From Burkholderiaceae bacterium (GTDB lineage Bacteria > Pseudomonadota > Gammaproteobacteria > Burkholderiales > Burkholderiaceae), in contig JAGTRK010000008.1 in assembly GCA_018261955.1 (NCBI GenBank), positions 1 through 64,000 on the forward strand: a stretch of DNA of 64,000 nucleotides, given 5' to 3'. Positions 3,854 to 33,284 of the stretch are shown in pieces; position 1 is the stretch's first letter; each line of letters begins with the position of its first letter. The notes beneath the pieces are model-generated. The model did no database searches. It saw nothing but the letters and a program-made list of their open reading frames with translations, and was not told where the DNA came from. The position numbers and the translations under genes were made by a program.

Positions 3854-6349
3854 GTGCATCAACCTTGGCGTTTCATCCTGTTGGCAGTGGTTGCGCTTTG
3901 GGCGGTGTGTGTGGCGTTCGCATTCGATGCGCCTTGGGTGGGTGCGAAGTATCTGTTTGTATGTGCTTGGGTATGTGCCGTGGCATTTGTGTGGTGGGCG
4001 CGCTCGCATCGTTCGAGTGCTATGGGTACGTTTACGGCGATACTGTTGTGTGCGTTGTTGGCTTTTTCTTGGGCGCAATGGCGTTGGTCTGAGCGCAGCG
4101 CACACACCATTCCAGCTGAATGGAACACCCAAGTACAAATGGTGCAGGTGCGCATTATTTCCATGCCGACACGCACCGATTATGGTTGGCGCATGTTGAT
4201 TCAACCCGAATCCGCGCAAATTCAAGTCGCGCCGAATACCCCTGCGCAAATGTCGCTTTCATGGGCGGACGATGATTTGCCCCTACCCATTTCCTCGATT
4301 CGCGTTGGGCAAACGTGGCGTTTGCCCGTACACATTCGTACACCTCACGCCTCTAAAAACGAAGGGGTGTTTGACCAAAGCCGTTATTGGCTGGCGAACA
4401 ATATCATGGGGCTGGCGTATGTGCGTGTTTACAAAAACAGCACGCCCGAGCAAATGCCCCAATTGTTGGCGACGCATCACAGTGTATTGTCCATGATTGA
4501 AAATTGGCGGTTTGATACTTTACAAGCCATTGATGCAACCTTGTCCGAAGCAAATCATTCGAACGTGAACGCCAGTGGCAATGTGTTCAAAGCACTGGCT
4601 TTGGGCGATCAGGCTGCGGTATCGGCGTGGCAATGGCAATTGTTTCAAGACACAGGCGTGACCCATTTGGTGAGTATTTCGGGGTTACACGTGACCGTGT
4701 TGGCGGGGATTTTGGCTCTGTGCGCACGTTGGGCATGGCGACGCAATGTGTGGCTGACCACGCGCATCCCGGCGATGCACGTGGCGCAGTGGGTTGGGCT
4801 CATCGGTGCGTTGGTGTATGCCTTGCTCTCGGGTTGGGGGCTGCCTGCGCAACGCACGGTGTGGATGCTCGCGTTGTGGTTGGGCTTGGCACGGCTCGGT
4901 GTGGCGCGCTCGGGATTGCGCGTGTTGGGCTTCAGTGTGTTTTGGATACTGATATTTGATCCATTCGCGGTATTGTCGGTTGGGTTTTGGTTGTCGTATG
5001 GCGCAGTGGCGTGGTTGATTGTGGCGTTTGATTCGTTTGCAGTGATCAAACAATCAGACGAAGATATGCCCAAACACCGTCAATTGGCTCGCTGGCTCAT
5101 CGGTTTGATGGGCGCGCAGTTGGGCATTTCATTGTCACTGCTGCCGATGACTTTGTACTTTTTTCGTCAAACCTCGCTGTTGGGTGTGGGCGTGAATTTT
5201 TTGGCGATTCCTTTGATGACGGTCTTGCTCGTGCCACTGTTGCTCAGTGTGATGGTATTGGCACTGACGGGTTGGGGCGAACCAGTGGTGTGGATGAATG
5301 GCGTGTTGGGTTGGCTGTTAAATGGTTTGCAATACCTACAAGGCTGGGCAAAATCGAGTGATTGGCTTGGGCGAATTGAGTTGTGGCAGGTGTTGGCATT
5401 GTTTGTGCTCTCGCTGTGTTTGGTCGTGTGGGTTCGTAAGCTGTGGCATGGCGAACCACTCAAACGCGCATGGAGATTTGTTGGCGCGGCTGTTTTAGCC
5501 ATCATTGTGGTCATCAACATACCGCCGAACTACCCACGCGTCCAAGAGGGGCAACTGCGCGTGACGGTATTTGATGTCGGGCAAGGCAGTGCGGTGCTGC
5601 TGCAAAGTGCGCATCAAAACTGGCTGTATGACGCAGGGGCGCGATTCTCGTCGGATGCAGATGCAGGCGCGCGCATCATCGTGCCGCACCTGCGCTATAT
5701 CGGAGTGACGCAAATCGACACACTCGTGCTCTCGCACAACGATTCTGACCACACGGGTGGTACGCAAAGTGTTCTTAACGCATTGCCTGTGCGACGCATG
5801 ATTACCTCTTTGAATGTATCGCAACGTGCTAGTTTGGGTATCGAACCAATCCCCGTGAATCTATGTGTCGCAGGGCAAACCGAGCAATTTGACGGTGTGC
5901 GCATGGCTGTGCTCTCACCCGATGCGCAGACCTTGAATGCGGACAGCGCATCCGACAATCAAAAAAGTTGTGCCTTGCGCTTTGAGGTGAGCAGTGCACA
6001 GCCGAACGCCCTCAAAAGTATTTTGCTCACGGGGGACATGGACATGTGGTCCGAGGCAAATATGGTGGTGGACAAAACCCCCAATGGTGTGGGTTTACGC
6101 ACCGTCGATGCGCTGAACCAAACGCCGTTGCAAACCGACATCGTGCTCATGCCCCACCATGGAAGTGACAGCAGTTCAAGCGCACCGTTGATAGATGCGA
6201 CTCAACCCAAATGGGCGGTGGCGCAAGCGGGTATGTACAATGCTTTTAGACACCCACGGGCAGAGGTGGTGCAAAGATACCAAGCCGCAGGCGCGCAAAT
6301 TTGGCGTACGGATATACAGTTTTCGCGCGTATTTATATTGGGGCAATAA
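3854..6349 (+). CDS. comEC: ComEC/Rec2 DNA-uptake channel protein
   Basis: The product has 831 residues from a GTG start at 3854. I chose this start because AAGGAG at 3842-3847 lies 6 bp upstream; a longer in-frame start at 3800 would overlap tatD. There are N-terminal membrane helices, a soluble segment, and then the multi-helix Competence domain, which begins around TGVTHLVSISGLHVT. The C-terminal third is a metallo-beta-lactamase-like domain with VFDVGQGSAVLL, LSHNDSDHTGG and MPHHGSDSSSS. In transformable bacteria ComEC carries single-stranded DNA across the inner membrane. All three parts are present and uninterrupted. Together with pilMNOPQ it suggests natural competence. Confidence 0.93.
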   Translation: MHQPWRFILLAVVALWAVCVAFAFDAPWVGAKYLFVCAWVCAVAFVWWARSHRSSAMGTFTAILLCALLAFSWAQWRWSERSAHTIPAEWNTQVQMVQVRIISMPTRTDYGWRMLIQPESAQIQVAPNTPAQMSLSWADDDLPLPISSIRVGQTWRLPVHIRTPHASKNEGVFDQSRYWLANNIMGLAYVRVYKNSTPEQMPQLLATHHSVLSMIENWRFDTLQAIDATLSEANHSNVNASGNVFKALALGDQAAVSAWQWQLFQDTGVTHLVSISGLHVTVLAGILALCARWAWRRNVWLTTRIPAMHVAQWVGLIGALVYALLSGWGLPAQRTVWMLALWLGLARLGVARSGLRVLGFSVFWILIFDPFAVLSVGFWLSYGAVAWLIVAFDSFAVIKQSDEDMPKHRQLARWLIGLMGAQLGISLSLLPMTLYFFRQTSLLGVGVNFLAIPLMTVLLVPLLLSVMVLALTGWGEPVVWMNGVLGWLLNGLQYLQGWAKSSDWLGRIELWQVLALFVLSLCLVVWVRKLWHGEPLKRAWRFVGAAVLAIIVVINIPPNYPRVQEGQLRVTVFDVGQGSAVLLQSAHQNWLYDAGARFSSDADAGARIIVPHLRYIGVTQIDTLVLSHNDSDHTGGTQSVLNALPVRRMITSLNVSQRASLGIEPIPVNLCVAGQTEQFDGVRMAVLSPDAQTLNADSASDNQKSCALRFEVSSAQPNALKSILLTGDMDMWSEANMVVDKTPNGVGLRTVDALNQTPLQTDIVLMPHHGSDSSSSAPLIDATQPKWAVAQAGMYNAFRHPRAEVVQRYQAAGAQIWRTDIQFSRVFILGQ

Positions 6350-23804: not shown

Positions 23805-26285
23805 CTAATTGGGTGCCGTAATGGGCTTGACAGGTTTGGGTTGTGTCGGCGCAGCAGGTTTGACGGGCGCAATGATTTCCTCGAGTTTGCGCTCGGACGC
23901 GGCTTTGACATCGGCTTCATTGACTGTCTCAGAGGCTTTGCGCGCGTCCGAGTTGGGCAATGGTACAGAGTTTGGATCCGCGTTCAACTCTTCAGGCGCG
24001 GGCGGTGGTGCGGGCTGCCCGTCAATGGTGATGGTCGGATCGGTTGGATTGCGTGTGATATCGCCACCCGCATCGGTGACGGCATTTTGCCATTGGGTTT
24101 CACGCGTTTCAACTTTTTTGCCTTGCAGAGCCATGCGCATGTAGTCCATCCAAATCGGCAATGCCAAGCCACCACCAAATTCGCCTTCACCCAATGATTT
24201 ATTGCCCGTATCAAATCCCATCCAAGCCACACCAACGAGTTTGGGTTGGTAGCCAGCAAACCACGCGTCCACTGCGTCATTGGTCGTACCCGTTTTTCCC
24301 GCAATGTCCGAGCGACCCAATGCGCTGGCGGCGCGTGCAGTACCGCCACGCACAACACCTTTGAGCAACGCGTCGGTCATGGCGGCGTTTTCTTTGGTAA
24401 TTACGCGATTTTTTTCATCGTTGGCCAAACGGGGTTTGGCTTCTAATATGACACGACCAGAGCGATCCACCACTTTTTTGATGAAGTACGGATCGACTTT
24501 GTAACCGCCATTGGCAAATACGCCGTAAGCACCGACCATTTCATAAGGCGTGGCTTCAATCGCCCCGAGTGCGACGGTTAAAAATTTATCAATCCGTTGA
24601 CCCTCAAAACCAAAACGCTCGGCATAACTGCGAAAATAATCATTGCCGATGCTTTGCAACAAACGAATCGAGACCATATTGCGCGAGGATGCCAAGGCGG
24701 TGGACAACGGTATTGGACCCAAATAGCGACCATCGGCGTTTTTCGGCTCCCAAGAGCCGACCTTAATCGGTTTGTCATCGACAATCGAGTTCGGATTCAT
24801 GCCGTTTTTCTCCATCGCAGCAGAGTAAATAAACGGTTTGATGGTTGAGCCTGGTTGACGATAGCCTTGTGTGATGTGGTTGAATTTGCTCAGTCCAAAG
24901 TCAAAGCCACCGACCAAGGCGTGAATCGCACCATCGGTCGGATCCATAGCGACAAAAGACGCTTGTACGCTGGGAACTTGCGTGATGCGGTAATTTGCAC
25001 CGTCGCTCGACTCAATCACGCGAACCACCGAGCCTGCGCGAATGCCTTTTTTGTCGCCACTGCCCAGTAAGTTTTTCGCAGGCCCTAAATTGGCACCACT
25101 GACTGTAATTTCTTCGCCGTCAGACGTGACACCTTTAAATGCGCCACCGCCCGTTGAAATGACGACCACGGTTTTGAGCGTGTCCAAGTCAGGATGCTCT
25201 TCAAAAATGCTGTCGAGCATTTTGAGACGCTCTTCGGGTTTGCTGGGCAAATTGTATTGAGCTTCTGCGCCGCGATAACCATATTTGCGATCATACGCAA
25301 ACACCGCTTTGCGCACGGCGGCGTAGGCGGCATTTTGTTCTTGACTGCGGATGGTGGTGTAGACTTTTAAGCCTTCAGTGTATGCCGCCTCTTTGTAGCG
25401 GTCATACATCAACATGCGCGCCATTTCGGCCACGTAATCTGCGTGTACTGTAAATTTGTTATTACGAACAGCGGCTTTGGTGTCAACAATCTGGACGACT
25501 TCGGCGCGTGCTTGGTTGTATTGCGCTTGAGTGATAAAGTTCAATTCCAACATGCGTTCCAACACATAGCGTTGACGCTCATCGGCGCGTTTGCGATTGC
25601 GAGCAGGATTGTTGCTGCTCGGTGCTTGCGGTAGGGTGGCAAGCATCGCCGATTCAGCCAAAGTCAAATCTTTGAGTTCTTTGCCGAAATAAATATCCGC
25701 TGCTGCCGCAAAGCCATACGCACGTTCTCCCAAATAGATGTGATTCATATAACGTTCTAAAATCTCGTCTTTGGTGAGGTTTTGTTCGATTTTTTTCGCC
25801 ATCAAGGCTTCGTAGAATTTACGCGTGAAGGTGCGTTCGTTGGTTAGAAAGAAGTTTTTTGCCAATTGCTGGGTAATGGTTGATGCGCCTTGTTTGCTAC
25901 CGCCAGTGAGGTTGTTCACGATGGCACGCCCCAAACCGAGATAGTCAATGCCGTCGTGCTCATAAAAACGCGCATCTTCAATGGCAATCAGTGCTTTCTT
26001 GAGATGGTCAGGTACTTCGGAGAGCAATACGGGTCTGCGGCGTTCTTCGCCGAATTCACCGATGAGTTGACCATCATCACTGAAAATCTGCATTGCCATG
26101 CGTGGTTTGTAGTCTTTTAGGGTGTCGATGGATGGCAAATTTCTCCAAGCGACCATAGACGCAAATGCCAACACAACTGCGGCAACGACGGCAGCAAAAA
26201 ATCCCCAAATCAAAAGGTTTTTAAAGATACGCCCAATCGGACTGGTTTGTGTGGGATGGGGGTTTGGGGTTTTGTCAGTGCTCAT
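23805..26285 (-). CDS. mrcA: Penicillin-binding protein 1A, bifunctional
   Basis: The product has 826 residues. One membrane helix spans about residues 24-46. The glycosyltransferase domain follows (AIEDARFYEHDGID, catalytic Glu103, then KQGASTITQQLAKNFFL), then an OB-like insert and the transpeptidase with Ser480 in GSTIKPF and a late KTGT motif. The C-terminal tail is rich in Pro, Ala and Asn. It builds and cross-links peptidoglycan. It is divergent from pilM, the arrangement known for ponA and the pil cluster in betaproteobacteria and Neisseria. Confidence 0.96.
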   Translation of the reverse strand: MSTDKTPNPHPTQTSPIGRIFKNLLIWGFFAAVVAAVVLAFASMVAWRNLPSIDTLKDYKPRMAMQIFSDDGQLIGEFGEERRRPVLLSEVPDHLKKALIAIEDARFYEHDGIDYLGLGRAIVNNLTGGSKQGASTITQQLAKNFFLTNERTFTRKFYEALMAKKIEQNLTKDEILERYMNHIYLGERAYGFAAAADIYFGKELKDLTLAESAMLATLPQAPSSNNPARNRKRADERQRYVLERMLELNFITQAQYNQARAEVVQIVDTKAAVRNNKFTVHADYVAEMARMLMYDRYKEAAYTEGLKVYTTIRSQEQNAAYAAVRKAVFAYDRKYGYRGAEAQYNLPSKPEERLKMLDSIFEEHPDLDTLKTVVVISTGGGAFKGVTSDGEEITVSGANLGPAKNLLGSGDKKGIRAGSVVRVIESSDGANYRITQVPSVQASFVAMDPTDGAIHALVGGFDFGLSKFNHITQGYRQPGSTIKPFIYSAAMEKNGMNPNSIVDDKPIKVGSWEPKNADGRYLGPIPLSTALASSRNMVSIRLLQSIGNDYFRSYAERFGFEGQRIDKFLTVALGAIEATPYEMVGAYGVFANGGYKVDPYFIKKVVDRSGRVILEAKPRLANDEKNRVITKENAAMTDALLKGVVRGGTARAASALGRSDIAGKTGTTNDAVDAWFAGYQPKLVGVAWMGFDTGNKSLGEGEFGGGLALPIWMDYMRMALQGKKVETRETQWQNAVTDAGGDITRNPTDPTITIDGQPAPPPAPEELNADPNSVPLPNSDARKASETVNEADVKAASERKLEEIIAPVKPAAPTQPKPVKPITAPN

Positions 26286-26455: not shown

Positions 26456-27421
26456 ATGATTCGTGAAACGTTGCGCCATTGGTTTGGGATGAACGAACCC
26501 ACATTGGCGTTGCAATTGGTGGAACAAGAGGCTCGGTATGTCGTGCGTCATGGCTCTCGCATATTAGAGCAGGGCTCTTGTTTTGCACCCAATGCGATTG
26601 TGGATGGGCATCTGTCTAATCCTGCTGAATTGGCACGGGTATTGTTGCCAAAACTACCCAAAATCAAAGGTCAAGTGGCGGCGTTGTTGCCCACGCGTTG
26701 GTTGCACTTGCACGAAATGAGTTTGCCCCACGGTTTGGATGGCGAGGAATTGTCCTACCAAATCAGCCGACACATCACCCATACTTTGGGCTTGTCACTC
26801 AATGACGTTTTTTACGATTGGACGACTCAAAGTGATTCCACAGATAGACATAAGACAAATATTCAACTGGCCATCGCTCGACAAACGGATGTAGCCCCAT
26901 ATTATCATGTGTTTGTTGACACCGATTGGAAAATGAAATGGGTGTGCTCCGAAGCTCAGGTGTGGGCGTTGGCGTATCAAAAGCGCATGGCAGGGCAAGC
27001 TGTGGCGATTTGTCAAGTTGAATCGCGTGAAATTTCATTTTGGGTGATTGACAAGAATTTGCGCGTGCATTCGTTTTATAAACGTTTTGATGACAACCAG
27101 ATTGTGCGTGCAGGCTTCGTGTACCAAACCTCTACCGAAAAAGAAGGTTCTTTAAAATTGCCTGCACGTTTTGTTGCAGATGAATTGGCAGTGTTGCTTC
27201 CCGTTTGGTTAGGGGCGAGTTTGCAAGACCTGGCGATGATTTATGGTACAGGCAAAGGGGTTTCTTGGCGCGATGATATGGCGGTGATTCAATCGCGTGT
27301 TGGTTTGCCCATACGCATGGCTGAAGACAAATTGACCTCGGATAAATTGAACAGTAGTTCCGTGCGATCACAGGCAGGGCTGGCAATTTTATGGCATCTA
27401 TCCAAACAGGTGAACGCATGA
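26456..27421 (+). CDS. pilM: Type IV pilus assembly protein PilM, divergent
   Basis: The product has 321 residues. It is identified mainly by position as first gene of pilMNOPQ and by features such as ALLPTRWLHLHEMSLPHGLDGEELSYQ, which matches the PilM pattern for the segment after the first subdomain. The usual start with a GxDIGSSSVKxVEL-like phosphate loop is replaced by TLALQLVEQEARYVV, so ATP binding may be lost. PilM is a cytoplasmic actin-like protein that holds the tail of PilN. Its stop overlaps the pilN start (ATGA). Confidence 0.82.
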   Translation: MIRETLRHWFGMNEPTLALQLVEQEARYVVRHGSRILEQGSCFAPNAIVDGHLSNPAELARVLLPKLPKIKGQVAALLPTRWLHLHEMSLPHGLDGEELSYQISRHITHTLGLSLNDVFYDWTTQSDSTDRHKTNIQLAIARQTDVAPYYHVFVDTDWKMKWVCSEAQVWALAYQKRMAGQAVAICQVESREISFWVIDKNLRVHSFYKRFDDNQIVRAGFVYQTSTEKEGSLKLPARFVADELAVLLPVWLGASLQDLAMIYGTGKGVSWRDDMAVIQSRVGLPIRMAEDKLTSDKLNSSSVRSQAGLAILWHLSKQVNA

Positions 27422-28056
27422 AATTGTTGAACTTATGGCCGAAAGAACAGGAAATTGCCCATCCTCAAAAACGTTTGTTGTTGGAAATGCTGTTAGCGGT
27501 GCTTGCGGTGGTCGCGCTTTTGTTGAGCATGGGGTTGTGGCTCAATTGGTGTTTACTCAATGTTAGCGAGGTCAATCAACAACTTCAAGCCGAATGGGTA
27601 CAACTCAATCAATCGCGAGCGGTTGAAATATCATCGGACACAGAGATGCCACGGGTGATGCGCCAGTTATTGGCTGGGCAACTCGATTGGATGGGTGAGT
27701 TGCCGCAATGGTTGGTGGACGAGCGTGTGCGTTGGGTTTCCGCCAAATATGATGACAAGGGTCTTAAATTGGCGGGCGTGGCACTTAACGGAGAAGCCAT
27801 CAATGCCATGCTTGACACAGTCAGGGCGCGCTATCCCAATCCGCCCGTGCAGATTAGCGAAATTGCCAATGCGAGTATCGCAGGGCAAACTTTGTGGCGT
27901 TTTGAAATGAACATAGATGCGCAAACTTTGCACAACAAGGTCGAATTGACGGCTGATGCAGAACCATCTGTGGCGCAATCGAAAGTGACAGATGACAACG
28001 ACAACGCAAAACCTCAATCACAGGTGAATACGACCGTGGGAGGCGCGCATGAGTGA
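27418..28056 (+). CDS. pilN: Type IV pilus inner-membrane protein PilN
   Basis: The product has 212 residues from ATG 27418, in ATGA overlap with pilM. The cytoplasmic tail KLLNLWPKE is a variant of the INLLPWR motif that binds PilM. One membrane helix spans residues 21-43, followed by a periplasmic coiled coil and a ferredoxin-like fold. The last 45 residues are polar and probably disordered. With PilO it forms the alignment complex. It overlaps pilO. Confidence 0.85.
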   Translation: MKLLNLWPKEQEIAHPQKRLLLEMLLAVLAVVALLLSMGLWLNWCLLNVSEVNQQLQAEWVQLNQSRAVEISSDTEMPRVMRQLLAGQLDWMGELPQWLVDERVRWVSAKYDDKGLKLAGVALNGEAINAMLDTVRARYPNPPVQISEIANASIAGQTLWRFEMNIDAQTLHNKVELTADAEPSVAQSKVTDDNDNAKPQSQVNTTVGGAHE

Positions 28057-28702
28057 TTATGTGAGGCGCAACACCCGTTGGCGAGATTTGGATATGGCGC
28101 AAATGCACCTGTGGCCCAATGCGCCGCGGCGTTGGACGGTGGCGTTCTTGGCTGCGTTGTTACTCGGACTTGGTGTGTTCTATTGGATTGTACCGCGCTA
28201 TGAGCGTTTGACAGAAGCTCAAAAACAAGTGCTCGATACGCAAAATCAAATCATCAAGGCATACCAGACCTCACCCGTATCATTGACCAACATCCCGCCG
28301 ATTCGCCAGATTAAACGCAGTGAAGAAAGCGTCTGGCTGAGCGATTTGGCGAGCTTAGCGCACAATCACCATTTGAATGCGGTGGTGCTTAAAACCCATG
28401 AATTGGATGAAACGGAACGCACTCGGTTGCGCGAGCAGATTCAAACCGCCGTCAAAAACAATCCGCAATGGGTCAATAAACAAGGTGGCGATTTGCCCTT
28501 GGATTGGTTGGCTCAAGTTGGTTGGGTTGATATTTCAGCGCAGGGCTCCTACGCGGATGTATTGGCGTTTGTGTCTGATTTGGGTGCGCACGATGAATGG
28601 TTGGCAGTCGGAGGGGTTGAGTTGAACGCCATTAATCAGACACAGGTGCATTGGCATGGTGGTTTTTGGTACTATAAAGAGGCAACGCATGTGCCTAAGT
28701 GA
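28049..28702 (+). CDS. pilO: Type IV pilus inner-membrane protein PilO
   Basis: The product has 217 residues with one membrane helix (about residues 30-48), then a coiled coil (YERLTEAQKQVLDTQNQIIK) and a periplasmic domain ending in a beta-rich segment (SAQGSYADVLAFVSDLGAH). It pairs with PilN and contacts PilP. Its start overlaps the end of pilN by 8 bp, and its stop lies inside the start region of pilP. Confidence 0.86.
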   Translation: MSDYVRRNTRWRDLDMAQMHLWPNAPRRWTVAFLAALLLGLGVFYWIVPRYERLTEAQKQVLDTQNQIIKAYQTSPVSLTNIPPIRQIKRSEESVWLSDLASLAHNHHLNAVVLKTHELDETERTRLREQIQTAVKNNPQWVNKQGGDLPLDWLAQVGWVDISAQGSYADVLAFVSDLGAHDEWLAVGGVELNAINQTQVHWHGGFWYYKEATHVPK

Positions 28703-29327
28703 ATTGACTTCGCGTATTGTTTTGCGGGTATTTGCCGTTCTGTTGAGTACATTGCTTATCGCGTGTGGCGACAATTTGCCAACACGGAACAGTTCATTGA
28801 GCAGTGATGCATTGCCCAGCATTGATAATTCCCATGATGCGCAGGTATGGTTAGAACAACAAAAGCGGCAGTCGCAAAACGCGGTTGCGGGCAATGTCAA
28901 CACCCCAGCGCAGAACGACCGCGGCTTGTTGCGCAACATTGGTTCAGTGTCAGACAAAACATTCGTCTCTATGAATGCCAGCGCGGTGGATTCGCTTAAA
29001 AACAAATCCACTGATGGCGCGGCGATGGTTCAAAGTGCTCAAGCCAACTCAGGACTTTTGGATGCGAGCGTTGATATGGCAGGGATTCGGGCCGAGTCCA
29101 AGGCACGAGTCGAGTTAGAATTGCCTCAGGCGAGTTTGTCGCAAATCAAATTTTTGGGCGTGATGCAAGCCCCAGACGAACTGTTTGGACTGGTGCAGGT
29201 CGGTGAGCGAGTGTATCGAGTGAAACAAAATGAGTCGATTGGCGCAGGTAAGTGGCGGGTTGCCTCGATTGATGAGGCGCGTATGCAACTCAAGGTCAAA
29301 GGCAAGGTTGTGACGTATGACAAATAA
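28689..29327 (+). CDS. pilP: Type IV pilus lipoprotein PilP
   Basis: The product has 212 residues from ATG 28689, with GAGG 6 bp upstream. The lipobox LIAC puts the modified cysteine at 26. A long disordered region follows, then the HR-like beta domain near the C-terminus (LSQIKFLGVMQAPDELFGLV, VGERVYRVKQNESIGAGKW). PilP links PilNO to the secretin PilQ. The disordered middle (about residues 35-140) is longer than in the classical 170-180 residue PilP. Confidence 0.86.
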   Translation: MCLSELTSRIVLRVFAVLLSTLLIACGDNLPTRNSSLSSDALPSIDNSHDAQVWLEQQKRQSQNAVAGNVNTPAQNDRGLLRNIGSVSDKTFVSMNASAVDSLKNKSTDGAAMVQSAQANSGLLDASVDMAGIRAESKARVELELPQASLSQIKFLGVMQAPDELFGLVQVGERVYRVKQNESIGAGKWRVASIDEARMQLKVKGKVVTYDK

Positions 29328-29366
29328 AAATCTGGAAAACATCTCATGGTGGATGGGAGCAGTCGA

Positions 29367-30716
29367 ATGAAGAAACGAGTGACAGTCAAAGGCGTGCAGC
29401 ATATGATTTGCGCATCCATTGTGCTTGGCGCATTGTGCTTGCCGAGTGTTTGGGCGCAGACCGTGAGCGACTTGAACGTGACCGTCTCGCCCGCGCAGCA
29501 AGACTCTGGCAAACGCATGGTGTTTGCTTTTCAAGATGTGCCTGTGCGTGCGTTGCTACAAGTATTGGGTGAGACCGCGGGCGTGAACATCGTCGCCGAC
29601 GACTCAGTGACGGGCACAATCACCCTAAACCTCAAAGACGCCACATGGCAAGAGGCTTTGGATGTGATTGTGCGCGCCAAAAACCTGCGTTTGGAGCCAT
29701 CGGGCGGAACGATGTTTGTGCGCGGCAGCAATGTGTTTATGGGCTCAGACGTTTATGGTGCGACGGGCTATTCGAGTAACGGCAACGGCTATCAAAGGGA
29801 CTCAGGTGCGCGCCCAAGATTTGAGCAACAAGTATTGATAGAAGCGCGCATTGTCGAGGCGGAAGACTCGTTTTCGCGCAGTTTGGGTGTGAAATTGGGT
29901 TTTAATGACAGAAGTCGCATGGGCACAACCTATGTGCCAGATCCTGCCAATGCGGGCAAATTCATTCAAGTGCCCACGCGCACCGACAGCGGCGTGATGT
30001 TCGGCGGCAACACCGACAGTTTGCAAAGTTTGAGCGGGCAAAACTCCGCCACAGGTATTGGGCAAGTGCCCTCGGTTGCCAATACGATGATTAATTTTCC
30101 TGCGGCTGTCTCTGCTTCTGGAGCCGATCCTGCTGCATTTGCTATGACTTTGTTTAATGCGGGTTTGACCCGTTTCATCAATTTGGAACTCACTGCTTTG
30201 GAGACCGATGGCAAAGGCAAAATGATTTCCAATCCGCGTGTGGTGACAGGCAACAACATCAAAGCTGTGATTGAGCAAGGCACAGAAATTCCGTACAAAG
30301 AAACCAGCACATTGGGTGCGACCAATACCTCATTTCGCAAAGCCAACCTCAAACTCGAAGTCACACCGAAAATTGCGCCGAATAGCGAAGTTCTGCTGGA
30401 TGTCGATGTGACCAAAGACAGCGTGGGTACTTACACTGCGGATGGCTTTACCATCAACACCAAACACGTGCAAACTCAGGTGAATATTGACAACGGTGGC
30501 ACTTTGGTCATCGGTGGCATTTATCAAGAGGACAGCCGCAAAGCCGTTGATAAAGTACCGTTTTTGGGCGACATACCACTGTTGGGCAATTTATTTAAAA
30601 CCACCACCCGCGCCACCAGCAAAACCGAATTATTGATATTTTTAACGCCGCATATTTTAGACTCGCGTGGTAATATTTTGCCCGCGAATACTCAGAAACT
30701 CAGCATCAATGAGTAA
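29367..30716 (+). CDS. pilQ: Type IV pilus secretin PilQ, short form
   Basis: The product has 449 residues from ATG 29367, which has GGAG 7 bp upstream; an ATG at 29346 lacks a site. A signal peptide ends near Ala30. A single STN/N0 domain spans about 51-118 (FAFQDVPVRALLQVLGETAG). A linker rich in Gly, Tyr, Ser and Asn covers 119-152, and the secretin domain starts at QVLIEARIVEA (155-165) and runs to the C-terminus (VPFLGDIPLLGNLFK near the end). The AMIN domains and the second N-domain that normally lie before the secretin are absent, so it is far shorter than typical PilQ (about 700 residues). It forms the outer-membrane pore for pili and DNA. Confidence 0.87.
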   Translation: MKKRVTVKGVQHMICASIVLGALCLPSVWAQTVSDLNVTVSPAQQDSGKRMVFAFQDVPVRALLQVLGETAGVNIVADDSVTGTITLNLKDATWQEALDVIVRAKNLRLEPSGGTMFVRGSNVFMGSDVYGATGYSSNGNGYQRDSGARPRFEQQVLIEARIVEAEDSFSRSLGVKLGFNDRSRMGTTYVPDPANAGKFIQVPTRTDSGVMFGGNTDSLQSLSGQNSATGIGQVPSVANTMINFPAAVSASGADPAAFAMTLFNAGLTRFINLELTALETDGKGKMISNPRVVTGNNIKAVIEQGTEIPYKETSTLGATNTSFRKANLKLEVTPKIAPNSEVLLDVDVTKDSVGTYTADGFTINTKHVQTQVNIDNGGTLVIGGIYQEDSRKAVDKVPFLGDIPLLGNLFKTTTRATSKTELLIFLTPHILDSRGNILPANTQKLSINE

Positions 30717-30740: not shown

Positions 30741-31340
30741 ATGACCTCGAGACAAAATAAAAACGCCTTAGCCATCACGCCTGCGCAAAAAGCCTTGCTC
30801 AAACAAGCCCCCAATATTTACCTGATTGGGTTGATGGGCGCGGGCAAATCGACTGCGGGGCGACTTCTCGCCCAAACGATGGGGCGCGAGTTTTATGATT
30901 CGGACGATGAAATTGTCAAGCGCACGGGCGCGAGCATTCCGACGATTTTTGAAATTGAGGGCGAAGCAGGCTTTCGCGAGCGTGAGCAACGCATGATTGC
31001 CGAGTTGTGCGCGAAAAAATCCGTGGTATTGGGCACGGGTGGCGGCGCGATATTGCGTGAAGCCAATCGTGAAGCACTGAAAAACACAGGCTGGGTGGTG
31101 TATTTATCCACCTCGCCCGAACGCTTAATTAACCGCACGCGCTATGATAAAAATCGCCCGCTGTTGCAAACTGCTGATCCCTTGTCTGTGCTCACGCAAT
31201 TGTATGCAGTGCGTCACCCGATTTATCAGGACTTAGCGGACATTGTCATCACCACGGGTGCGGGGCATGTCACCCATGTGGTGGCACAGATCATTGAGCA
31301 ACTCATCGCACGCATCGGACAAAACTTGCACGCGCAATAA
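30741..31340 (+). CDS. aroK: Shikimate kinase
   Basis: The product has 199 residues. The Walker A motif GLMGAGKST, substrate residues in YDSDDEIVKRTGASIPTIFE, and LGTGGGAILREANR are typical of AroK. It phosphorylates shikimate at the 3-hydroxyl in the pathway to aromatic amino acids. It follows pilQ by 24 bp and precedes aroB by 21 bp, which is the common pilQ-aroK-aroB order. Confidence 0.96.
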   Translation: MTSRQNKNALAITPAQKALLKQAPNIYLIGLMGAGKSTAGRLLAQTMGREFYDSDDEIVKRTGASIPTIFEIEGEAGFREREQRMIAELCAKKSVVLGTGGGAILREANREALKNTGWVVYLSTSPERLINRTRYDKNRPLLQTADPLSVLTQLYAVRHPIYQDLADIVITTGAGHVTHVVAQIIEQLIARIGQNLHAQ

Positions 31341-31361
31341 CTTTTAAACATACGAAATACC

Positions 31362-32438
31362 ATGACCACACTGACCGTAGAATTGGGCGAACGCGCCTAC
31401 CCCATCATCATCGCGCCGAACGCATTGCACAACGCCGCCGCGCTCAACCACGCGATTGCGGGTGACACCGTGGTGATTGTTTCCAACACCACCGTCGCGC
31501 CGTTGTACGCCGAGCAATTGGCGCAGACCGTGCGTGAGTTGGGTAAAACGGTTCATATTCACGTTTTGCCCGATGGTGAGCAATACAAAGACTTGGCGAA
31601 TTGGCAAACCATCTTCGATACATTGTTGTCCAAACAGTGCGACCGCAAAACCACGCTGATTGCGCTCGGTGGCGGCGTGATTGGCGACATGGCTGGTTTT
31701 GCGGCGGCGGCGTATATGCGCGGCGTGCCCTTCATTCAGTGTCCAACCACCTTGCTCTCGCAGGTTGATTCATCGGTTGGCGGTAAAACGGGCATCAACC
31801 ACCCCTTGGGTAAAAACATGGTCGGCGCGTTTTACCAACCGCAACTGGTGCTTGCCGACATCAACACTCTGAACACCTTGCCCGACCGCGAACTTTCAGC
31901 AGGCTTGGCAGAAATCATCAAACATGGTGCGATTTACGACACCGAATATTTTGAATTTTTAGAAAAAAATATCGATGCCATCCGTGCGCGTGATGTGGCT
32001 GCGCTCACCCACACCATCGTGCGCTCGTGCGAAATCAAAGCCGAAGTCGTGGCGCAGGACGAACGCGAATCGGGCTTGCGCGCGATACTCAACTTCGGAC
32101 ACACCTTTGGTCACGCCATTGAAGCGGGCATGGGCTATGGCAATTGGCTGCACGGCGAAGCGGTGGGTGCGGGCATGGTTTTGGCGGCGGATTTGTCGCA
32201 TCGTCTTGGACAACTGACTGAGCAAGAGGTGAACCGCATTCGTGCACTCATCCACGCGGCGGGATTGCCCACCGAAGCCCCGCGTTTGGGCGTGAAAGCC
32301 ATGCTTGAGCACATGCAATTGGACAAGAAAAACAGCGCGGGTTCAATACGTTTTGTGTTGTTGAATGGTTTGGGTAAAGCGGTGATTCAAAAAGTGGATG
32401 ATGGGGTTTTGCGGGACACTTTGGCGGTGTGTGAATAA
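31362..32438 (+). CDS. aroB: 3-Dehydroquinate synthase
   Basis: The product has 358 residues. NAD- and metal-binding motifs are visible: [40 protein letters not shown] and [11 protein letters not shown]. It forms 3-dehydroquinate from DAHP in the shikimate pathway. It is last in the run from pilM through aroB, after which the next gene has its own leader. Confidence 0.97.
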
Positions 32439-32525
32439 TCCATAAACCGCCCATCACCTATGTCGCACTTGCATCTATGCTACAGTGCGTCCCGTGCATC
32501 TTGCACATTCCAACATCGAGACCCC

Positions 32526-33284
32526 ATGAAAAAATTTAATTCATTCCCCCTTTTTGCCATCAGTGTACTGTTTGGTTTGACCTTAACCGCTTGTGACAAA
32601 AAAACACAGGTGCAAGAATCCACAACTGTGACCAGCACGATGGCGGTGGGTGGCGCACCGACGGGTGTTGCACCGATTACGCCGAGTTCGAGCACCAGCC
32701 TAATCGGTTCAGGCGTTGCTGCGACGCAAACCTTGACCTTGAGTCAGCCTGTCAAGCGCGTGGTTGCGGATGTGTCGGCGACCTTTATTTATGACCCATC
32801 GGTGGGTGATAAAATCGTGGTGACGGCGGATGACAATATTCAAAATCAAGTCAAAGTCAGCGTTGAGCAAGGTGTGCTCAAACTCGCGCCGATTGCCAAC
32901 ACCATTCAACAAAAAACCCCGATTCAAATCACGTGGGGTGGGGTTGCACCAGAGGAGTTGGACATCACGGGTTCAGCCAAAGTGATTGTGCGTCAATTTA
33001 AAGGCAGTCAATTGAATGCCAATATTTCGGGTTCAGGCGCGGTGGATGCCGATGGACAAACGCAACAGTTGAATATTGCCATTTCGGGCAGCGGCTCGTT
33101 TGTGGGTGCGCAGTTGGTGGCGCAAAAAGCGATGCTGAACATCACAGGTTCAGGCAATATTGTGGTGCAAGTCAAGCAAGAGGTCAGCGGAAAAATTGCG
33201 GGTTCGGGCTCAGTGGTTATCAGTGGCAATCCGAAAACTCGTACTTTAATGAGCGAGGGCTCGGCGCAAGTGGTTTATCAGTAA
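32526..33284 (+). CDS. Lipoprotein with a GIN/DUF2807 beta-helix domain
   Basis: The product has 252 residues from ATG 32526. The lipobox LTAC gives Cys23. A Thr/Ser-rich linker follows to about residue 65. The rest carries the repeated GSG turns of the DUF2807 (GIN, putative autotransporter head) fold: ITGSAKVIV, ISGSGAVDAD, ISGSGSFVGA, ITGSGNIVVQ and IAGSGSVVISG, spaced about 20 residues apart. It should sit on the outer membrane with a right-handed beta-helix-like surface. Its ligand is unknown. It stands alone after aroB. Confidence 0.8.
   Translation: MKKFNSFPLFAISVLFGLTLTACDKKTQVQESTTVTSTMAVGGAPTGVAPITPSSSTSLIGSGVAATQTLTLSQPVKRVVADVSATFIYDPSVGDKIVVTADDNIQNQVKVSVEQGVLKLAPIANTIQQKTPIQITWGGVAPEELDITGSAKVIVRQFKGSQLNANISGSGAVDADGQTQQLNIAISGSGSFVGAQLVAQKAMLNITGSGNIVVQVKQEVSGKIAGSGSVVISGNPKTRTLMSEGSAQVVYQ

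Follow-up and report, generated by a model that had tools for sequence, protein, structure and literature searches.

A PilQ-type secretin without the N1 domain and its recurrence in small-genome Burkholderiaceae

The pilMNOPQ locus and the layout of its secretin

The window, a 64,000-nucleotide stretch of DNA that makes up most of contig C9 of a Burkholderiaceae genome (G000; 1.85 Mb, 9 contigs, 88.7% complete), carries a pilMNOPQ cluster in which pilQ is the last gene and pilP lies directly upstream of it (Table 1). The cluster is flanked by conserved genes, which we take to encode PBP1a on one side and AroK and AroB on the other. PilM, PilN, PilO and PilP evolve much faster than PilQ, the Aro proteins and PBP1a, and they barely reach or miss the Pfam models; the two outgroup genomes searched for PilM gave 271 and 278 bits. 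Further downstream, the stretch 32460–33284 contains a lipoprotein-like ORF with repeated GSG motifs (identified by eye), whose only matches among 17 loci compared are in the other two genomes belonging to the window's genus.

Table 1. Features of the pilMNOPQ locus (window coordinates) and of the gene preceding pilQ in genus g13
Feature	Coordinates	Strand	Basis
Conserved upstream neighbor	23805..26285	-	Homologues 45–91% identical in 15/17 loci searched
pilM, divergent	26456..27421	+	Pfam PilM_2, 27.2 bits (cut-off 27)
pilN	27391..28056	+	Pfam PilN, 15.6 bits (below cut-off, 22.8); similar and syntenic in 6/8 other genomes
pilO, by position	28049..28702	+	No Pfam family above cut-off; similar and syntenic in all 8 remaining genomes of the two genera
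pilP, 223 aa, HR-like C-terminal domain	28656..29327	+	Pfam PilP, 27.4 bits (cut-off 25.6)
pilQ, N1-less secretin, 449 aa	29367..30716	+	TIGR02515 and Pfam STN/Secretin
Probable signal peptide, residues 1–31	29367..29459	+	By eye, from translation
N0/STN domain, residues 49–120	29511..29726	+	Pfam STN; alignment to N0 of PDB 4av2 and 4ar0
Gly/Tyr/Ser/Asn-rich linker, residues 121–153	29727..29825	+	Composition; alignment with relatives
Secretin domain, residues 154–432	29826..30662	+	Pfam Secretin
Conserved downstream neighbors, two genes	30741..32438	+	Homologues of each in 14/17 loci searched
About 230-aa protein of g13	L067:9757-10449; L072:8980-9678	-	With 16 loci in addition, 15 g13 genomes in all

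Translation from the ATG at 29367 yields a protein of 449 residues; the program-called ORF opens 7 codons upstream, at 29346 (456-aa form). The protein scores 332 bits against the NCBIfam model for PilQ (TIGR02515; cut-off 284), and Pfam identifies an STN domain (PF07660) at residues 73–119 (33.4 bits, cut-off 28.4) and a secretin domain (PF00263) at residues 277–431 (170 bits, E = 3.8e-50, above cut-off), the latter spanning profile positions 1–168 of 169; a GspD-like N0 match falls below the Pfam cut-off. Neither AMIN nor Secretin_N, which represents N1, gives a Pfam match at E ≤ 1 in the 456-aa form. The linker, counted from the end of N0 to the first secretin strand, comprises 33 residues, 52% of which are Gly, Tyr, Ser or Asn. 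The layout read in the original prediction, i.e. a single N0/STN domain connected to the secretin domain by a Gly/Tyr/Ser/Asn-rich linker, with both AMIN and N1 missing, is thus confirmed.

N1 sits between N0 and the barrel in type IV pilus secretins. When the window protein is aligned with N. meningitidis PilQ (4av2), its N0 pairs with chain residues 317–409 and the secretin domain resumes at residue 489, leaving a gap of about 80 residues at the place of N1. AlphaFold2, run on a 4-row alignment, gave a model too poor to read (mean pLDDT 41). The window protein is an intact PilQ-type secretin made of N0/STN, a linker and a secretin domain. It resembles the T4aP PilQs (TIGR02515; N. meningitidis 4av2, P. 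aeruginosa 6ve2, V. cholerae 6w6m) in its pilMNOPQ operon, N0, secretin domain and family score, but it has neither AMIN nor N1 and is shorter than the solved chains (449 residues versus 571–745). HofQ/ComE-type secretins (E. coli HofQ, NF010083; PDB 2y3m), which are linked to DNA uptake, are also short and devoid of AMIN; however, they retain N1, unlike the window protein. Against the two curated HofQ models, the window protein scores 201/554 bits (NF010083) and 149/598 bits (NF007851), below cut-off in both cases.

The absence of AMIN is ordinary, that of N1 unusual. According to a survey of 197 proteobacterial T4aP secretins, these proteins mostly consist of STN, Secretin_N, the secretin domain and 0 to 3 AMIN domains, AMIN being missing in 27 of them (PMC7545093). 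Of the 369 genomes in a class-wide sample, 344 matched the N1-less profile; among the matches listed, we scanned the PilQs of 41 genomes by profile search and Pfam, namely the 29 best matches besides the window, 12 matches starting early in the profile (positions 95–122; G412 belongs to both sets) and G397. Among these better-scoring matches, Secretin_N is present in 41/41 PilQs and AMIN in 40/41; as a few early-start matches, G147 among them, and the weaker matches of the class lie outside the scan, N1-less PilQs may occur elsewhere. Hence, of the initial claim that PilQ normally contains AMIN and N1, the part concerning N1 stands, whereas the part concerning AMIN is overstated. Three other candidates for an N1-less PilQ were rejected: G397, the sole match apart from the window that starts before profile position 95 among the matches listed, has N1, and in the short ORFs of G421 and G356 an N1-like sequence, recognized by eye, precedes the secretin domain.

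Distribution of N1-less PilQs and their place in the trees

A pilQ match was found in all nine genomes of the two nearest genera, three of genus g1 (common to both family samples) and six of g22. N1 is absent from PilQ in four of them (G000, G022, G041 and G085) and present in four others (G021, G056, G065 and G075), while in G042 (L066, about 6175–6280) a run of N spans the N0–secretin junction, making the architecture unreadable. G022, a separate record from the same genus as the window with a 344 kb contig, encodes a PilQ that is 84% identical to that of the window and has the same architecture. The linkers of G022, G041 and G085 contain 27, 31 and 18 residues, respectively, which gives a range of 18–33 residues with the window; the same interval, from the end of N0 to the first secretin strand, measures 85–87 residues in the N1-containing PilQs of the group and 93–109 in three outgroups. 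Pfam detects STN in 7/7 and Secretin_N in 0/7 of the N1-less PilQs (the four above and three from genus g13, described below), and both domains in 7/7 N1-containing PilQs scanned. AMIN is found in none of the seven N1-less PilQs and in three of the seven N1-containing ones; we take these three to be the outgroup proteins (715–736 aa), in which case the four sister-genus PilQs are devoid of AMIN. Searched as a whole, the four N1-less genomes contain no Secretin_N and the four N1-containing ones a single match each, inside PilQ. The former measure 1.85 (G000), 2.0 (G022), 2.1 (G041) and 1.7 Mb (G085), the sizes of G000 and G085, which are less than 90% complete, being those of the assemblies; the latter measure 2.2, 2.4, 2.5 and 2.7 Mb.

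Additional N1-less PilQs occur in g13, a genus of the same family that is probably Polynucleobacter, with genomes of 1.7–2.4 Mb, many of them single-contig. Among 398 family genomes searched, we read 21 from g13, nearly all of them best-scoring matches; the pilQ ORFs are 365–402 aa long and N0 is joined to the secretin domain. Counted from the Trp of N0, the first secretin strand is 54 residues away in the 20 g13 genomes measured and 60 in the window; in the 21st genome, G740, the N1-less layout was read by eye. No Secretin_N was detected in PilQ in the three g13 genomes scanned with Pfam, nor anywhere in eight of the nine tested genome-wide. The exception, G050, carries three Secretin_N domains in another frame, of 780 aa, which lies next to a second, GspE-like T2SSE ATPase. 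The g13 PilQs resemble the window protein in that N0 leads straight onto the secretin domain, but they differ from it by their separate origin, by a linker that is not rich in Gly, Ser and Asn and by the lack of pilMNO between the PBP1a gene and pilQ in the loci read.

We built two trees, one from PBP1a, AroK and AroB (1247 columns, 15 rows) and one from PilQ, restricted to the N0 and secretin columns with N1 left out (327 columns). Both place g13 outside the two genera, which unite at 100/100. In the housekeeping tree, G021, which has N1, and G085, which does not, are sisters (100/100); N1-less G041 branches beside them, with a support of only 78/74, and the window's genus forms a separate branch (100/100). 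This tree rejects a single clade of N1-less genomes (p-AU 1.6e-8; five rows, the undecided G042 included) as well as a single clade of the four N1-containing ones (p-AU 1.9e-5). The PilQ tree agrees with these results: G021 and G085 group at 99/98 and G041 lies beside them at 84/86, a single N1-less clade and a single N1-containing clade giving p-AU values of 0.003 and 0.0015, respectively; this tree leaves the deepest split within the group unresolved (49/14). Since N1-less and N1-containing PilQs occur as sisters in both trees and since N1 is present in outgroup PilQs outside g13 (by Pfam for three of them, by eye for others), N1 would, most simply, have been lost three times in the two genera and once more in g13.

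The tree tests count changes and do not give their direction, and the same counts could arise from a single ancestral loss of N1 followed by its regain through recombination in some sister-genus lineages. We consider such a course improbable: the presence of N1 in the outgroups outside g13 makes loss the simpler direction, and the N1 of G021 is no closer to that of G075 (41/61 identical residues) than are the flanking N0 (52/72) and secretin domain (178/252), which argues against recombination. Note that the N1 domains of G056 and G065 have changed more relative to G075 (36/62 and 37/62 identical residues, respectively) than N0 (57/72) and the secretin domain (236/271), as expected if the domain were loosening, although the G075–G021 comparison does not display this pattern.

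Selection on PilQ and the remaining pilus machinery

Selection was estimated from one N1-less pair, G000 and G022, wider PilQ pairs having a dS above 1.4 or undefined. PilQ has a dN of 0.083 and a dS of 0.96 (dN/dS 0.086), compared with dN/dS ratios of 0.062 for AroB (0.047/0.75), 0.043 for AroK (0.043/1.00) and 0.053 for PBP1a (0.057/1.08) and of 0.10–0.32 for PilM (0.16/1.55), PilN (0.25/1.28), PilO (0.20/1.31) and PilP (0.36/1.12), all these ratios being rough because dS is near or above 1. Within PilQ, the ratio is 0.075 for N0 and 0.031 for the secretin domain, the latter being the best-kept part (265/279 identical residues versus 61/72 for N0), while the linker drifts, with 13/27 identical residues and 6 gap columns. 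The N1-less PilQ is under purifying selection.

These values bear on the possibility that the pilus machine is in early decay, the deletion of N1 being the first step of pseudogenization. The fast change of PilM, PilN, PilO and PilP (PilP is 53% identical between G000 and G022) could be a sign of a machine losing function, despite the above ratios, and the N1-less genomes are smaller than the N1-containing ones in these genera, with the reservation made above for G000 and G085. However, the reading frame is intact in the four N1-less pilQ genes of the two genera, including that of the window, the within-genus pair displays a low dN/dS with the secretin domain best preserved, and other type IV pilus genes are present in the genome; early decay is therefore unlikely, in agreement with the original prediction, which had read the intact frame as speaking against it.

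G000 encodes PilB-like (596 aa) and PilT-like (340 aa) ATPases, together with PilC-like and PilD-like proteins. The PilT-like protein passes TIGR01420, and the PilB-like and PilC-like proteins fall short of the equivalog cut-offs. One pilin gene stands alone; four N_methyl pilin-like genes form a cluster with a fifth gene that has a weak GspK-like match only. The last gene of the cluster (G000:C8:176436-176891, i.e. L117:3937-4392) encodes a minor pilin matching PF16732 (ComP_DUS, DNA uptake sequence receptor) with 59 bits. A strong T2SSE match of PilB size was found in 8/8 genomes of the two genera searched, and a second T2SSE match, in a frame of 341–381 aa, in the same eight genomes, that of G041 being partial.

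A search of this 88.7% complete genome found the missing domains in no other gene: one secretin was detected in G000, and no match to AMIN or Secretin_N. An anchor or a second secretin may nevertheless lie outside the assembly, given its incompleteness. LysM anchors, of which TsaP and FimV are examples, were also considered as a means of holding the pore to the cell wall, but the sole LysM protein found in G000 bears an SLT (lytic transglycosylase) domain, a weak ground for rejection since the genome is incomplete.

Lastly, an assembly collapse or a wrong gene model, such that N1 is present in the organism and not in the sequence, is barely credible: the window's genome is incomplete, the named relatives are MAG contigs and the run of N in G042 lies right at the junction, but the same layout recurs with differing linkers in G022, G041 and G085, single-contig g13 genomes share it, and Secretin_N is found nowhere in the window's genome. 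In conclusion, the loss of N1 is genuine and has occurred more than once; it also seems new to the literature, in which our search for an N1-less secretin or PilQ found no paper that describes one.

In 15/15 g13 genomes, the gene directly upstream of pilQ encodes a protein of about 230 aa (ORFs of 166–260 aa) with a conserved N-terminus (SQSFDxILSxLGDDPAIPDP), one hydrophobic stretch and a C-terminus faintly resembling the HR domain of PilP. Where the locus extends as far as the PBP1a gene (L067, L072 and L073), no space is left for pilMNOP beside the gene for the 230-aa protein. Solved PilP domains are matched by a profile of 11 PilPs, that of the window included; PilP is absent from the PDB matches of the profile of the g13 protein, and direct comparison of the g13 profile with PilP aligns 66 columns at the HR end (E = 0.008, probability 4.8%), a suggestion that the two may be related. 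In 10 of the 12 g13 genomes searched, the T2SSE ATPase frame is 362–379 aa long, with no stop reported and no second strong match. In G093 and G671, also from g13, a stop is reported inside the ATPase match; the secretin match of these genomes is either weak (6e-35) or located in a frame of 179 aa.

Possible working of a PilQ without N1

We consider it likely, with a probability of roughly three in four, that the window PilQ is a working T4a-pilus secretin from which N1 was excised in frame, in which N0 is flexibly tethered and for which N1 is dispensable, its function being judged here from sequence. AMIN would have gone earlier, and the N1 ring domain would then have been cut out in frame. 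In such a protein, (i) the C-terminal domain would still form a gated outer-membrane barrel; (ii) N0 would still dock on the HR domain of PilP, and hence on PilNO; (iii) a tether of 18–33 residues, predicted to be flexible because of its 52% Gly/Tyr/Ser/Asn composition in the window and its drift, would stand in for the rigid ring of N1, leaving the periplasmic vestibule one ring short, with only the gate and N0/PilP to guide the pilus. In these lineages, N1 would then be a dispensable spacer or stiffener and not a required part of the pore, a role suggested by its loss on several occasions while the gene is well kept.

What is known of the N domains in other species bears on this proposal. 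In N. meningitidis, titration indicates that PilP binding affects N0 and not N1 (PMC3441751). Since N0 is kept, and constrained, in the window protein, and pilP lies directly upstream, the expectation that a different contact with PilP must be found has no support. In V. cholerae, the domain that we call N1 is named N3; it is reached via a 32 Å helix after N0 and narrows the channel from 90 to 60 Å (PMC7545093). An experimental parallel is that of Thermus thermophilus PilQ mutants, in which, according to a review (PMC8578077), the secretin works in part without its periplasmic ring structures; these are laboratory deletions in a six-ring protein. There, ring-structure deletion strongly affects piliation and twitching, but not transformation. 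Losing rings is therefore costly for piliation, which counts against a working PilQ in the window; conversely, because transformation is spared, the likeliest use of the system would be a T4aP serving DNA uptake or adhesion, with little need of sustained twitching force. Our literature search found no data on pili, twitching or transformation for this group; the description of a Hydromonas-related species reports non-motile cells, and a text search of it gave no match for pili.

A broader proposal, to which we give appreciably less than even odds, is that a minimal outer pore for the type IV pilus has arisen convergently, at least four times, in small-genome Burkholderiaceae. This pore would lack the N1 ring and combine a tethered N0 with a tunnel that is shorter by one ring or open in places, and the pilus would act mainly in DNA uptake through the gate and N0/PilP alone; in g13, the trans-periplasmic complex would have shrunk to one membrane protein and one short ATPase. 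Were this so, N1 would not be a core part of the pilus pore. The repeated loss of N1, combined with continued selection on the remainder of PilQ, amounts to a natural deletion experiment, suggesting that N1 is unneeded for pore assembly or for the link to PilP. The sister pair formed by G021, with N1, and G085, without it, offers a system in which to study what N1 contributes to the guidance and force of the pilus or to DNA uptake. Note that in G021 PilM and PilN are fused in a single 516-aa ORF (L062:12094-13644, minus strand), with PilM_2 at residues 41–150 and PilN at residues 424–495.
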